From assembly GCA_029862185.1 (NCBI GenBank), contig JAOTXX010000004.1, positions 1 to 64,000 on the forward strand: a stretch of DNA of 64,000 nucleotides, in the 5' to 3' direction. Source of the stretch: Myxococcales bacterium (GTDB taxonomy: Bacteria > Myxococcota_A > Polyangia > Polyangiales > Houyiibacteriaceae). Positions 3,822-55,480 of this stretch are shown piece after piece (the first letter of the stretch is position 1; each line of letters opens with the position of its first letter). The notes under the pieces were generated by a model. It searched no databases and was not told the DNA's origin. It was given only the letters and a program-made list of their open reading frames with translations. A program made the position numbers and the translations under genes.

Positions 3822-5200
3822 CTTGGACGTGGGTTGCGGGTGATGAGGATCAGCATCTGTCCCTCGTGCGCGGCACGCTCGGGAACTTCGACGATCAGAT
3901 CCCACATTCCGGGCTTTGCATCCACCTCCAGGGTCTGCGTGCGCCGGCGAACGCAGCGCTCGCCGTTTTCGTCGATGCGAACCCAAAGAACCCGGTGCTT
4001 GTACCCCGCGAGGTCGAGCGCAGAGGCGCGGAGGCGCCTGCGCTCGGCAAGCTCGACCCGGTGGCGGTACAGGCGGGTGTTGGTTTTGAGGAAGCTGCAG
4101 TTCTTGGGGAGGGTTTCCGCCGTGGGGAGATCGGGTTTGGAGACGAGAGCAGAAAAGGGGAAGGGAGGCGGAGGCGGAGCCGGGGCCGTGCCAGTGTCAG
4201 TGCCAGCGTCAGTGCCAGCGTCAGTGTCAGCGCCAGCGTCCGTGCCAGCGTCCGTGTCAGTGCCAGCGTCCGTGTCAGTGCCAGCGTCCGTGTCAGTGCC
4301 AGCGTCCGTGCCAGCGTCACCCCGCAAAGCCGAGGCTTCGCCTCGACCACGGGGTGCGTTAGCCCCGTGGACGACGCCCGGCGTCGTCTTTACGGGGTCC
4401 CTGTCCCCGTCCCCCACCGCCTTCCTCAACGCGTCCAGCATCTGCAGCGTCAGCAAGTTCCTCAGATTGTTCCCGTACCGCAGCCCCTTCTCCGTCAACT
4501 GGCATGCAGCCTTCAGGCCGCCCTGCCCCAGGACATTCGGGTGCACGCCGTCTCGGGCCAAACCTTTGCGCCGAAGCGCGCTGAGGGCGGCGTGGTAGTC
4601 GATGTACGGGAGTGACCAGTGCTGGGCGACCGCTTCGGTGATCGCATTGAAGCGGCTGATCCAGCGGTCCTTGTAGGTGTTTCGTCTTGGGAGTGCGGCG
4701 CCGAGGATGGGGATGACGCCTATGGCGGCGAGCTCTTCGATCAAGTAGACCAGTCGCTTGGCGTATACCCGCTCGTTCTCGTTTTGGGCGTCGTTGCCGC
4801 CGAACAAAATCAGCGCCCAGCGTGCTTGGGTGCGCTCGAGCTCGTTTCGGAAATTGGCTGGACGACCTCCGAGGACGTAGCGGAGGTTCCAGCTCACACC
4901 GGCTGCTTTGCTTTCACGATTGAAGGAGTTGCGCCGGCCGGTCGCGAAGTATTCGACGGTCTCGGCGAGGTCTTCGTGCGCGCCAAGGTCCACATACGGG
5001 GTCGAAAAGCAGTGGAGGAAGGCTTTGCTGGCCACACTGGAGCCGCCCATCTTCGAAAAAGCGTCGTCGCGAAGCTCCGGATTGCGCGCATGGATCATCC
5101 GAACGTGCTCGGTGACTTCCGCGCTGAGGCCGGCCGGTTCGGCGCGAGCGCTTCCGGCGACAAGCAGCGTCAGAAGGAAAGCAAGGGCGGCTGACTTCAT
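3818..5200 (-). CDS. Secreted SGNH/GDSL-hydrolase-like protein with Asp/Ala/Gly/Thr repeat linker
   Basis: Signal peptide MKSAALAFLLTLLVAGSARA; WALILFGGNDAQN and DGVHPNVLGQGGL (catalytic D-x-x-H-like); linker (DAGTDT)n. Confidence 0.7.
   Translation of the reverse strand: MKSAALAFLLTLLVAGSARAEPAGLSAEVTEHVRMIHARNPELRDDAFSKMGGSSVASKAFLHCFSTPYVDLGAHEDLAETVEYFATGRRNSFNRESKAAGVSWNLRYVLGGRPANFRNELERTQARWALILFGGNDAQNENERVYAKRLVYLIEELAAIGVIPILGAALPRRNTYKDRWISRFNAITEAVAQHWSLPYIDYHAALSALRRKGLARDGVHPNVLGQGGLKAACQLTEKGLRYGNNLRNLLTLQMLDALRKAVGDGDRDPVKTTPGVVHGANAPRGRGEASALRGDAGTDAGTDTDAGTDTDAGTDTDAGTDAGADTDAGTDAGTDTGTAPAPPPPPFPFSALVSKPDLPTAETLPKNCSFLKTNTRLYRHRVELAERRRLRASALDLAGYKHRVLWVRIDENGERCVRRRTQTLEVDAKPGMWDLIVEVPERAAHEGQMLILITRNPRPR
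4187..4318. repeat. Intragenic hexanucleotide repeat (GCCAGCGTC/GCCAGTGTC variants)
   Basis: gtgccagtgtcagtgccagcgtcagtgccagcgtc... encodes DAGTDTDAGTDAG linker on minus strand. Confidence 0.92.
4319..4400. repeat. Hairpin module shared with 27999-28033, embedded in CDS
   Basis: Reverse complement CCCCGTAAAGACGACGCCGGGCGTCGTCCACGGGG plus neighbouring CCCCGTGGTCGAGGCGAAGCCTCGGCTTTGCGGGG hairpin. Confidence 0.75.
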
Positions 5201-14225: not shown

Positions 14226-15167
14226 ATGGCGGGGCTATTTCCAGAAATCGAGCCGTACGATACGGGCCACCTTCAGGTCGATGAGCTGCACTCCGTTTAC
14301 TTCGAGCAATGCGGAAATCCTCAGGGAAAGCCGGCCCTCTTTGTGCATGGAGGGCCTGGCGGCGGCGCGAACTCCGTGCACCGCCGGTTCTGGGACCCTG
14401 CCGTCTACCGCATCATTCTCTTCGATCAGCGCGGCTGCGGCCGCAGCACGCCTCACGCAGAGCTGCGAAACAACACTACCTGGGATCTAGTCCAGGACAT
14501 GGAGCGAATCAGGGAGCACCTCGACATCCAGCGATGGCAGTTGTTTGGCGGCTCCTGGGGGAGCACGCTCAGTTTGACCTATGCCCAGCAGCACCCCGAT
14601 CGCGTGTCTGACATGGTGTTGCGCGGCATCTTTCTACTCCGGCAACGCGAGATCGACTGGTACTATCAGGAAGGCGCGAGCCGGATCTTCCCGGAGGCAT
14701 GGGAGAAGTATCTCGAGCCGATTCCCAGAGAAGAGCGGGGCAACCTGGTGGACGCCTACTACCGCCGCCTCACGAGCCGCGATCGAGCCGAACGGATTCG
14801 GGCCGCTCGCGCGTGGAGCATGTGGGAAGGCAGTACGAGCAGGCTCGTCCCCGACCCGGAGTTGATCGCACGGACCGGCGACGAAACGTTCGCCGAAGCG
14901 TTCGCGCGAATCGAGTGCCACTACTTCGTCAACGGCGGCTTCTTTCAAGACGAGAATCAGCTGCTGAACGACGTCGACCGCATCCAACACATTCCGACGC
15001 TCATCGTTCAAGGCCGCTACGACATCGTCTGCCCCGCCGAAAGCGCCTACGAGCTCCACCGCGCCCTGCCCAACAGCACCCTCGAAATCGCCCCCCGCTC
15101 CGGCCACTCCGCCCTAGAACCCGAAATCACCTCACTGCTCGTAAGGGGACACTCTCCTACCCCCTAA
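14226..15167 (+). CDS. pip: Proline iminopeptidase
   Basis: FVHGGPGGGAN, DQRGCGRSTPH, FGGSWGSTLSLTYAQQHP; C-terminal residues RGHSPTP read from a repeat arm. Confidence 0.92.
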   Translation: MAGLFPEIEPYDTGHLQVDELHSVYFEQCGNPQGKPALFVHGGPGGGANSVHRRFWDPAVYRIILFDQRGCGRSTPHAELRNNTTWDLVQDMERIREHLDIQRWQLFGGSWGSTLSLTYAQQHPDRVSDMVLRGIFLLRQREIDWYYQEGASRIFPEAWEKYLEPIPREERGNLVDAYYRRLTSRDRAERIRAARAWSMWEGSTSRLVPDPELIARTGDETFAEAFARIECHYFVNGGFFQDENQLLNDVDRIQHIPTLIVQGRYDIVCPAESAYELHRALPNSTLEIAPRSGHSALEPEITSLLVRGHSPTP

Positions 15168-15320
15168 CGTCCCGCAACCACTGCGATCCCCCGGCAAAGA
15201 TCGCAGCGCCCCAGGCGTGACCGCGAGTATTCCGCCACGAGATCGGGAAAGGTCGCGCTGCGATCTTTGCCTGAGAAACCGCGTGATTACAGGGGGTTGG
15301 AGGGTAGGAGAGTGTCCCTA
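15144..15320. repeat. Nested-palindrome element between convergent genes
   Basis: 17-bp perfect inverted repeat (15146-15162 / 15302-15318) enclosing a 16-bp perfect inverted repeat (15193-15208 / 15256-15271). Confidence 0.85.
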
Positions 15321-31854: not shown

Positions 31855-32781
31855 ATGAAGCAACCGATGCTCCTCTTCGCGACCGAACGCTACCAAGAGC
31901 TCTGCGAGGACATTTCGGGCGCAGGCGACTTCGACCTGGGCGTCGTGGAACGCAAGGTCTTCCCGGACGAGGAGCGATACCGCCGCCTCGAAACCGATTG
32001 CGCCCTTCGCGACGTGGCGGTCGTCGGCGGGACGGTCGACGACGTCGACATGCTCGAAATCTACGACCTCGCATGCGGCCTGGTTCACCTCGGGGTCCAC
32101 ACCCTCACCCTCGTGCTTCCCTGGTTCGGCTATCAAACGATGGAGCGCGCTTCGAGGTACGGTGAGATTGTGGCCGCGAAAAACCGTGCCCGGCTGATCT
32201 CTTCGATCCCGAGCGCCGGCTCCGGCAACCGCGTGGTTCTGATCGACCTGCACTCCGAAGGCATCCCGCAGTATTTCTCGGGCGACATTCGTCCGGTTCA
32301 TCTGCAAGCACGCTCCGTCGTGCTCCAAGCGATTCGAGACTTCGGTGGCGAGGATTTCGTCCTCGGCGCAACCGACGCCGGCCGAGCCAAATGGGTCGAG
32401 AGCCTCGCCAACGATCTGCTGGTCGACGCCGCCTTCGTCTTCAAACGCCGCCTCTCGGACACCCAAACCGAGATCACGGCCCTAGCCGCCGACGTCGAAG
32501 ACCGTCCCGTGGTCATCTACGACGACATGATCCGTACCGGGGGCTCCCTCATCTCTGCTGCCAACGCCTATCGAGAAGCCGGCGCTAGCGAGGTCTACGC
32601 GGTGTGCACCCACGGCGTATTCGCCCAGGAATCGCTCGAGCGGATTCAAGACAGCGGAGCGCTCGCGGGCATCGCATGCACGAATACGAGGCCACACGTC
32701 CAGGATCTCGCCGACGGAGACTTTTTGAGGGTCTATTCGGTGGCGGATTTGATCGCGCAGTTTTTGTCGGACAGCGTGTAG
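31855..32781 (+). CDS. Ribose-phosphate pyrophosphokinase (PRPP synthetase family)
   Basis: WFGYQTMERASRYGEIVAAKNRARLI, IDLHSEGIPQYFSGDIRPVHL, VVIYDDMIRTGGSLISAANAYREAGA. Confidence 0.9.
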   Translation: MKQPMLLFATERYQELCEDISGAGDFDLGVVERKVFPDEERYRRLETDCALRDVAVVGGTVDDVDMLEIYDLACGLVHLGVHTLTLVLPWFGYQTMERASRYGEIVAAKNRARLISSIPSAGSGNRVVLIDLHSEGIPQYFSGDIRPVHLQARSVVLQAIRDFGGEDFVLGATDAGRAKWVESLANDLLVDAAFVFKRRLSDTQTEITALAADVEDRPVVIYDDMIRTGGSLISAANAYREAGASEVYAVCTHGVFAQESLERIQDSGALAGIACTNTRPHVQDLADGDFLRVYSVADLIAQFLSDSV

Positions 32782-32783
32782 CG

Positions 32784-32866
32784 CTGGCGCTGAGGATGGC
32801 GCTGAGGCTGAGGCTGGCGCTGGCACTGGCGCTGGCACTGGCACTGGCACTGGCACTGGCACTGGG
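32784..32866. repeat. Hexanucleotide tandem repeat tract (CTGGCA/CTGGCG/CTGAGG variants)
   Basis: gctggcgctgaggatggcgctgaggctgaggctggcgctggcactggcgctggcactggcactggcactgg. Confidence 0.92.
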
Positions 32867-32915
32867 GCTACCGCGGATGTGGTGGGGGGTGGTTGATTTG
32901 CGTAGGGCCTGGTCA

Positions 32916-33337
32916 GGTTTAATTACACCGCCCGCCCACCCCCACCCGTAGTCCTCCCTGGCGCGGCATTCGCTTTGCTTTGCCTTGCCGGCGCATTCGC
33001 GCCGGGCTTCGCCCTTTGGGCTCGCGCTGCCGCCAGCTGTCTTGTGGGGGTGTTCTGATGCCGCTCTCTTACACAACTGGATATGAATGGAGGGGCGCGG
33101 ACAAAGGCGCGATGTGGGGCGGAGTCGACGTCCGAAGTGCCAATCTGCAAGACAGCAGCCAACCCAGATTGGCGCGCCGGTCGAGGCGAGGCTTGCCTGG
33201 TCCCCGCCCTCAAGTCCGACCGACCAGATTTGCAAGCCGAGCCGTTCGATGGAGCCCTGCGTCGCGCCTTTGTCCGCGCCCCGCTATGAAGCCGCGCCAG
33301 GGAGGATTACGGGTGGGCGGGCGGTGTAACAAAAACC
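32916..33337. repeat. Dispersed noncoding element copy 2 with about 50-bp terminal inverted repeats
   Basis: ggtttaattacaccgcccgcccacccccacccgtagtcctccctggcgcggc at left, inverted degenerate copy at 33291-33337; core aligns to reverse complement of 54993-55343. Confidence 0.85.
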
Positions 33338-33353
33338 GACGCTGACACCTACC

Positions 33354-53832: not shown

Positions 53833-54390
53833 ATGCCCGCACGACTGACACCACGCCAACGAGCCTACGTCCGGAAGCGAACGCGCATTCCCGACCTCGA
53901 TCCGTCCGAGACCAGCGAGGAGCTGAACATCGTTCCGTTTTTGGACATCGTCGTGAACATCGTCATGTTCTTGTTGATGACTCTGACGACAATCGCCTTC
54001 TTTTCGCAGGTCGAAGCGGCGCTCCCCGAATATCACAAAGGCGGGATCGGAAAGCGCGCAGCGGCGGATGAAGCCCTCAACTTGAACGTCACGGTAACGC
54101 GCGAAGGGGTCGTCGTCTCTGGGACGGGCGGCAAGCTCGCGCGGGGATGCACGACCACGGCGCCTGGCAAGGTCATCACCGTGCCCGCCGGAATGAACGG
54201 CGAACATGACTGGACGGCGCTGACCACCTGCGTGAGTCGCGTCAAAAAGCAGTTCGAAGACGAAACGCGGGTCACGATCAGCGCAGACCCCGAAGTGCCG
54301 TATGAAGATCTGATCGCCGCCATGGATGCCGTCCGAGGTGACGAAAGCGAGCTGTTCCCTGAAGTTTTGCTTTCGGCGGGGATTCGATAG
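53833..54390 (+). CDS. ExbD/TolR family protein
   Basis: LNIVPFLDIVVNIVMFLLMTL; PEVPYEDLIAAMDAVR. Confidence 0.85.
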   Translation: MPARLTPRQRAYVRKRTRIPDLDPSETSEELNIVPFLDIVVNIVMFLLMTLTTIAFFSQVEAALPEYHKGGIGKRAAADEALNLNVTVTREGVVVSGTGGKLARGCTTTAPGKVITVPAGMNGEHDWTALTTCVSRVKKQFEDETRVTISADPEVPYEDLIAAMDAVRGDESELFPEVLLSAGIR

Positions 54391-54992
54391 TGGCAAACGA
54401 GCGCAATAGGCCGTCGCGCCCCTCCCTCGCACCGCCCGTCGCAGAGAAGTCCGTCTCGATGTCTTATGTGAATCGCGTGGTCCGCGCGAAGCTGCGCCGC
54501 CGCGCCGAGCCTGAGCACTTCGGGCTCAACATCTACCCGATGATGGACATGCTCACGATCCTGCTGGTCTACATGATGGCGATCTTCGCGACGTCGTCCG
54601 CAGCGGCGGTTCAGGAGAGCAGTGAGCTGAAGATTCCCTATTCGACCTCCAAGGTGGAGCTGAGCGACGCCATTTCCGTTCAGATCTCACGCAGCGGGGT
54701 AGTCGTCGACGGCAAATCCGTCCTCGAGCTCCGCAACGGGATCGTCGACCCCAGCCTCAAACAAGGCGGTAGCAGCGGCTTCCTGATTACGCCGCTGTAC
54801 AAAACGCTGGGCGAAATCCGCGACCGAAAGAAGCGAACGGCGCAGCGCTTCGCAAATCAGCCATTCGTCGGCGACGTGCAAATCATCGCCGATAAACGGA
54901 CCCCGTACCGGACGCTGAGCGAAGTGATTTACACACTCGGGCAGACCGAGTTTAAGAATCTGCGCTTCGTGGTGAACAAGAAGACGGAGTAG
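54390..54992 (+). CDS. ExbD/TolR family protein
   Basis: LNIYPMMDMLTILLVYMMAIF; ADKRTPYRTLSEVIYT; 1-nt overlap with previous gene. Confidence 0.85.
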   Translation: MANERNRPSRPSLAPPVAEKSVSMSYVNRVVRAKLRRRAEPEHFGLNIYPMMDMLTILLVYMMAIFATSSAAAVQESSELKIPYSTSKVELSDAISVQISRSGVVVDGKSVLELRNGIVDPSLKQGGSSGFLITPLYKTLGEIRDRKKRTAQRFANQPFVGDVQIIADKRTPYRTLSEVIYTLGQTEFKNLRFVVNKKTE

Positions 54993-55394
54993 GCGCCGGG
55001 CATACCGGGGCGCGGAAAAAAGCGCGACACGGGGCTGCGTCGAACGGCTCGGCTTGCATTTGTGGTCGGATGCACTTGGGAGCTTTGACCACGCAAGCCT
55101 CGCCTCGGCGCGCGCGCCAATCCGCGGTGGTTGCTGTCTTGCGGATTGTCACTTGCGACGTCGACTCCGCCCCATATCGCGCTTTTTTCCGCGCCCCTCC
55201 ATACGGAGACATGTCGAACCGCGTTCCTCCGTACGGAGCCATCCAGACACGTTCCAAAGGAGCGCCTCAAGCCATGCGCGGTAGCGCGAGCCCGAAGGGC
55301 GAAGCCCGGCGCGAACGCGCCGGCAAGGCGGAGCGCAGCGACCGCCGCGCCAGGGAGGATTACGGGTGGGGGTGGGCGGGCGGTGTAACCAAAC
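54993..55394. repeat. Dispersed noncoding element copy 3 (reverse orientation relative to copy 2)
   Basis: Reverse complement aligns along copy 2 core; G-rich terminus 55344-55394 GCCGCGCCAGGGAGGATTACGGGTGGGGGTGGGCGGGCGGTGTAACC. Confidence 0.85.
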
Positions 55395-55437
55395 CCAACC
55401 ACGCCCCAAGCCCAGCAACCCCCCACACCACACCCGC

Positions 55438-55480
55438 GGCAGCGCGAGCCCGAAGCGCGAAGCACGGCGCAAAGCGCCGC
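55438..55480. repeat. Partial second copy of an internal segment of the dispersed element
   Basis: gcggcagcgcgagcccgaagcgcgaagcacggcgcaaagcgccgc resembles gcggtagcgcgagcccgaagggcgaagcccggcgcgaacgcgccgg within copy 3. Confidence 0.65.

Follow-up and report, generated by a model that had tools for sequence, protein, structure and literature searches.

An apparently undescribed branched repeat at gene ends in an order of Myxococcota, with likeness to REP and BOX elements

This study revealed that the noncoding element at 32912-33340 of the window, by which we mean the whole stretch of 64,000 nucleotides analysed, is best read as one mosaic small interspersed repeat. Its central module, B, is probably a REP/BOX-like, non-autonomous structured element that is located at gene ends, is spread in trans and is predicted to form an RNA boundary; we assign this reading a probability of roughly 0.6. 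The B family is a real family of structured small interspersed repeats and is apparently undescribed.

Results

Modular organization of the element

The window corresponds to contig C161 of the source genome (G000), an assembly of 4.29 Mb in 169 contigs that was rated 100% complete. The window copy is composed of module A, a linker, module B and then a partial inverted A, and further pieces of A and B are found elsewhere in the window:

32912-33034, forward strand: module A, a C-rich end and GC-rich hairpins; an independent dispersed repeat
33035-33088, forward strand: A-B linker (...ACACAACTGGATATGAAT), one of at least two linker types, by comparison of copies
33089-33285, forward strand: module B, a three-way junction of ~196 nt; covariance model R1 205 bits, E 8e-41
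33092-33120, forward strand: 5' arm of the B closing stem P1, sequence variable and pairing kept (CM alignment, pair tables)
33129-33183, forward strand: B hairpin P2 (AAGTG.CAATCNG ... CNGATTGGCGCG) with a conserved 17-nt loop, CAAGACAGCA... (CM alignment, pair tables)
33185-33243, forward strand: B hairpin P3 (GGCTTGC.TGG ... CCA....GCAAGCC) with a conserved 4-nt 3' bulge, also in other genera (CM alignment, pair tables)
33254-33282, forward strand: 3' arm of P1 (CM alignment, pair tables)
33291-33340, reverse strand: partial inverted module A with a 6-bp deletion, 80% to 32912-32967; an arrangement that is not general
55278-55395, reverse strand: module A of a second composite copy, 90% identity, E 7e-40
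55004-55200, reverse strand: module B of the second composite copy, R1 225.8 bits
28059-28127, reverse strand: partial module A, 88% complementary to 32911-32979
55436-55479, reverse strand: piece of another module A, matching positions 78-122 of A at 89%

The C-rich end of module A carries a G-quadruplex motif, GGGTGGGGGTGGGCGGG, on the opposite strand, and fainter similarity extends leftward from A to ~32870. An initial annotation of this region had described a left end (GGTTTAATTACACCGCCCGCCCACCCCCACCCGTAGTCC...) and an inverted right end that is 6 bp shorter, and both are present, matching over ~50 nt. It had also aligned the core to the reverse complement of a region near 55 kb, which we recovered with 84% match between 33087-33288 and 55001-55202. 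Since 32887-33033 matches the reverse complement of 55278-55424 as well (86%), the second copy includes the left module in addition to the core. With regard to the nature of the element, which had been likened to a MITE or a structured noncoding element, the dispersed, structured and noncoding character was borne out, whereas the 50-bp terminal inverted repeat (TIR) did not hold as an element boundary. The apparent TIRs of the window copy arise because a partial inverted A remnant follows B, and because most copies are without this inverted A, the element is not a TIR-bounded MITE. The target-site duplication (TSD) that was to be looked for is not evident by eye in the copies of B alone that were inspected; a TATGAA direct repeat, possibly an ancestral duplication, flanks B in some A-type copies.

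Among copies, the arrangements A-B, C-B (B beside module C), A alone and B alone were all observed. Module C is a third repeat, GGAGAACGGCTCG...CGAGCCGTTCTCC, dispersed and structured, whose outer stem varies (GGAGAACGGCTCG, GGAGGACGGGTCG, GGAGAATCGGTCG) around an inner core that is conserved; it was found around B at four loci (L062, L039, L051 and L052), and also at L173. A pseudoknot between TGCTGTCTTG of module A and the P2 loop CAAGACAGCA was considered and dropped, only some copies containing the complement.

Fold and strand preference of module B

The RNA fold of 33085-33290 has a minimum free energy of -126.9 kcal/mol (z -8.8). The B fold comprises the long closing stem P1 and the two hairpins P2 and P3, with their conserved loop and bulge, respectively. 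That the element might be a structured RNA is strongly supported by covariation and by strand asymmetry. Covariation was assessed with pair tables and shuffles: in 19 B copies of the source genome, 98.7% of the cells are paired, and 25 of the 65 pairs, corresponding to 97 cells, show double changes. None of 500 shuffles reached this level, and slid registers drop to 36-47% paired. The sequence of P1 varies widely among subfamilies and is still paired; perfect P1 arms can in part be produced by hairpin template switching at replication, which mimics covariation.

For 96 distinct copies, the consensus fold (alifold) amounts to -91.8 kcal/mol on the drawn strand versus -40.7 kcal/mol on the opposite strand. 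In these copies, 461 cells are G·U and 12 are A·C; the difference is inflated by the pair set having been picked on that same strand, and filling single mismatches brings the counts to 464 versus 12. The excess is 111 versus 11 in P1 alone with the common wobble columns omitted, and 26 versus 6 for pairs predicted on both strands. U.G pairs persist in P1 and P2, and the opposite strand of B also folds well (z -6.6). The asymmetry between G·U and A·C cells means that selection acts on the drawn strand in single-stranded form. Judging from the sequences, this single strand most likely acts as RNA; a single-stranded DNA fold, selected during transposition, would also yield strand asymmetry, and the size of the bias favours RNA.

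Distribution of the family

The copy-number search proposed in the initial annotation returned 40+ further places in the source genome, down to E 1e-22, well beyond what chance would give, and the possibility raised there, that only the window copies exist, is contradicted by dozens of further copies. R1 identified 28 full-length copies of module B. Module A is present in at least 41 near-full-length copies with 81-100% identity, a lower bound, as 40 of 74 candidates were scored; 30 copies were aligned. R1 detects B in 18 of the 19 genus genomes, at 1-38 copies per genome, and gives weak matches in three other genomes; a search over 290 genomes of the class gave the same distribution. Eight copies outside the genus form this junction as well, their P1 being unrelated. 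A second model, R2, was restricted to outside copies, as a mixed MAFFT alignment (A4) misplaced P1 across genera. It recovers home-genus copies with a best E of 1.8e-17, and outside the genus it detects this fold in nine genomes. These represent two more genera within the home family and three further families. The B fold spans four families of the order, patchily. In the alignment of outside copies, 36 pairs show double changes, and P1 is almost wholly different in sequence and still paired. Beyond the order, there were no matches among 379 genomes of the phylum.

Most assemblies of the genus are fragmented MAGs that are frequently broken at these repeats. As contig ends often fall within A or B (G000:C97, C147, C168 and many congener contigs), the copy numbers are lower bounds. 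Matching records in named genomes come from MAGs of uncultured Myxococcota, among them 'Myxococcales bacterium SG8_38' and 'uncultured Polyangiaceae bacterium'. Rfam 15 gave no match for B; the whole window matched only a tRNA, and the element region only sub-threshold miRNA models. No description of the B family was found in the open-licence literature, and a look for a viral carrier gave 0 exact matches to one conserved 30-base pattern in viral contigs. Inverted B dimers with spacers of ~170-250 nt occur in other genera (L260 3201-3831, L261 4514-5067, L262 4248-4808 and L269 3642-4220), and G047 and G273 are genomes with such inverted pairs; at L261, the outer inverted sequence runs ~25 nt past B.

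Placement of module B relative to genes

Neighbouring genes were called around 98 B copies with a simple codon-usage caller. Of 93 right-hand genes, 77 are oriented toward B, and in 42 of these 77 the 3' end of B lies at most 15 nt from the stop codon of the facing gene, versus 2 of 53 on the left side (Fisher p 2.5e-10). Copies with both neighbours called are mostly situated between convergent genes (43/62). Where B does not abut the gene, the gap often holds a remnant of A, of C or of an older B. Both situations are represented in the window: for the copy at 55004-55200, 11 nt separate the end of B from the ExbD/TolR stop codon (gene 54390-54992, forward strand), and at the B starting at 33089 an A remnant intervenes between B and the stop codon of a cytochrome c gene. 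Corresponding gene ends bear B in several species, often at equal spacing (16 clusters). REPs elsewhere lie within 20 nt of gene 3' ends (PMC3733652), and BOX repeats show enrichment in convergent intergenic regions (PMC3049150). As both sit similarly, the position alone is not new; the polarity toward the stop codon is the less usual part of B placement.

Degenerate six-base tandem arrays (CAGTGC/CAGCGT type) were observed at 4174-4347 and 32781-32867 of the window; in relatives, arrays of this type occupy the gap between convergent stop codons.

Exchange of module B as a unit

Module B moves or is exchanged as a unit. Three copies of the source genome at different loci (L033, L034 and L036) are 99% identical, and L050 and L052 have exactly B in common (97.4%), their left flanks being from different modules. 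At one orthologous site (L042/L147), the left and right flanks match at 87% and 89% with equal junctions, whereas B matches at 72% and belongs to another subfamily. A second in-place change was identified at L007/L121 (left flank 79%, right flank 91%, B 77%). At L047/L092 and L056/L139, B is orthologous, and at L050/L130 the P1 arms change jointly while the core remains orthologous. The cytochrome c/PRPP-synthase locus carries B in some genomes, lacks it in others, which have short intergenic regions, and carries it inverted in G005. In G010, a PF05635 ORF is interrupted by B-A.

Candidate mobilising partners

Neither a RAYT nor a reverse transcriptase emerged as a consistent partner of B. RAYT-like Y1 genes are present in 13 of the 19 genomes of the genus, but a different repeat, GGGACACTCTCC, flanks the RAYT gene of the source genome, and no B was seen near the Y1 loci that were scanned. 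Y1_Tnp was not detected in the B-bearing outside genomes G042, G047 and G273, which are 94-99% complete. A reverse transcriptase (RVT_1), which a retron or group II intron-type RNA would call for, is missing from the source genome and from nine of ten other genus genomes tested, and no B was present at the reverse-transcriptase loci scanned in other genera. Two further candidates were rejected. Genes for 23S_rRNA_IVP four-helix bundles (PF05635) are multi-copy in the genus and missing from the B-rich genomes G000 and G009, and the gene inside an inverted B pair on contig C23 of the source genome is an ORF of ~210 codons that is not transposase-like in look.

Some PF05635 genes form convergent pairs (G002:C139:4031-4674, G016:C6:420045-420679 and others), with up to 20 matches per genus genome and none in G000; in the two PF05635 ORFs that were read, a hairpin lies 5' of the ORF. 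The window also contains a strong palindrome at 15146-15318 (DNA fold z -8.0) with the ends GGGACACTCTCC/GGAGAGTGTCCC. As the same ends flank the RAYT-like Y1 transposase gene of the source genome (G000:C146:92933-93259), this palindrome is probably the non-autonomous partner of that transposase.

Discussion

In the reading that we prefer, B would spread as a REP/BOX-like element mobilised in trans by some factor, and other copies would overwrite resident ones in place, either by gene conversion or by inserting again into the older element. At gene 3' ends, copies may persist as harmless or useful. The selected strand would be the one read by transcripts leaving the left-hand gene, and the most plausible role for the folded B RNA would be that of a transcript boundary, stopping the antisense run into the neighbouring gene.

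The presence of B at the same gene ends across species, often at the same spacing, could also be explained by a resident cis-acting RNA, such as a terminator or 3'UTR structure, that is non-mobile, selected per gene and homogenised by gene conversion. The strong strand-specific covariation and the in-place swaps are consistent with this, but occupancy varies among relatives, as seen at the cytochrome c/PRPP locus with its B-less genomes and the inversion in G005. In addition, the copy number ranges from 0 to 38 and an ORF is interrupted in G010, and we consider a purely resident RNA unlikely. It is similarly doubtful that B represents transposase-less structured RNA (or single-stranded DNA) elements that target the bases just after stop codons, overwrite residents and are copied without a resident reverse transcriptase or RAYT.

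The strand asymmetry would also suit a giant GTAG-type REP moved on single-stranded DNA by a RAYT/TnpA-REP (HUH Y1) transposase. The foot of P1 is GTAG or GCAG in outside copies (home copies have mostly GGAG), the 3'-end placement is as in REPs (PMC3733652), and both the inverted dimers of G047 and G273 and the RAYT-like Y1 genes of the genus are in line with such a mechanism. Nevertheless, it appears quite unlikely given the distinct repeat around the resident RAYT, the scanned Y1 loci devoid of B, the B-bearing genomes lacking Y1_Tnp and a branched core of ~196 nt in place of a 20-40-nt hairpin.

A DNA-level palindrome (a cruciform or protein-binding site), whose arms are kept paired by quasipalindrome correction and not by RNA selection, would account for the joint change of the P1 arms around an orthologous core at L050/L130 and for the good fold of the other strand. 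The G.U versus A.C asymmetry, including the persistent U.G pairs, and the conserved sequences of the internal loop and bulge make this very unlikely. Finally, a MITE with ~50-bp TIRs mobilised by a conventional DDE transposase, as suggested by the inverted A sequence at both ends of the window copy, is highly improbable and for the most part refuted by how the other copies are built: most stop at B, A and B each occur alone, B is exchanged without A, and no TSD is seen by eye.

As a rule, small interspersed repeats take the form of a short hairpin or an AT-rich MITE. Module B is a branched fold of ~196 nt that compensatory changes have preserved in four families of a single order, with an almost completely rewritten closing stem, and it combines a clear strand preference with a polar link to stop codons. 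This opens two long-standing questions to testing: if repeats of this kind function as RNA where genes end, and by what route a repeat is copied or homogenised when no transposase is resident. A covariance model is now supplied for the family, which is not in Rfam 15.

Like REP, BIME and REPIN sequences (RAYT-associated GTAG repeats and CGTC repeats), B is dispersed, palindromic and extragenic, lies near 3' ends and between convergent genes, and forms inverted dimers and mosaics (PMC3733652). Unlike them, it branches at a three-way junction over ~196 nt, conserves a loop and a bulge and shows strand-specific G.U pairing, and it has neither a RAYT gene flanked by it nor a fully conserved tag. 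The BOX repeats of Streptococcus pneumoniae are modular composites with extensive predicted RNA structure and enrichment between convergent genes, and are presumed non-autonomous (PMC3049150). The element studied here shares these features, with its modules A, B and C, its RNA structure and its convergent-intergenic enrichment, but sequence, architecture and host differ, and B also occurs by itself and has a polarity toward the stop codon. The ERIC/IRU sequences of enterobacteria are large imperfect palindromes of ~127 bp in transcribed intergenic regions, for which no transposase is known. Both ERIC and B form a single large structure, that of ERIC being a simple imperfect palindrome; the likeness is one of description. 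MITEs and Correia-type elements are small, multi-copy and noncoding like B, which differs from them in having no general TIR and no evident TSD. B works like REP and BOX repeats, but fits neither the RAYT-REPs nor the MITEs.
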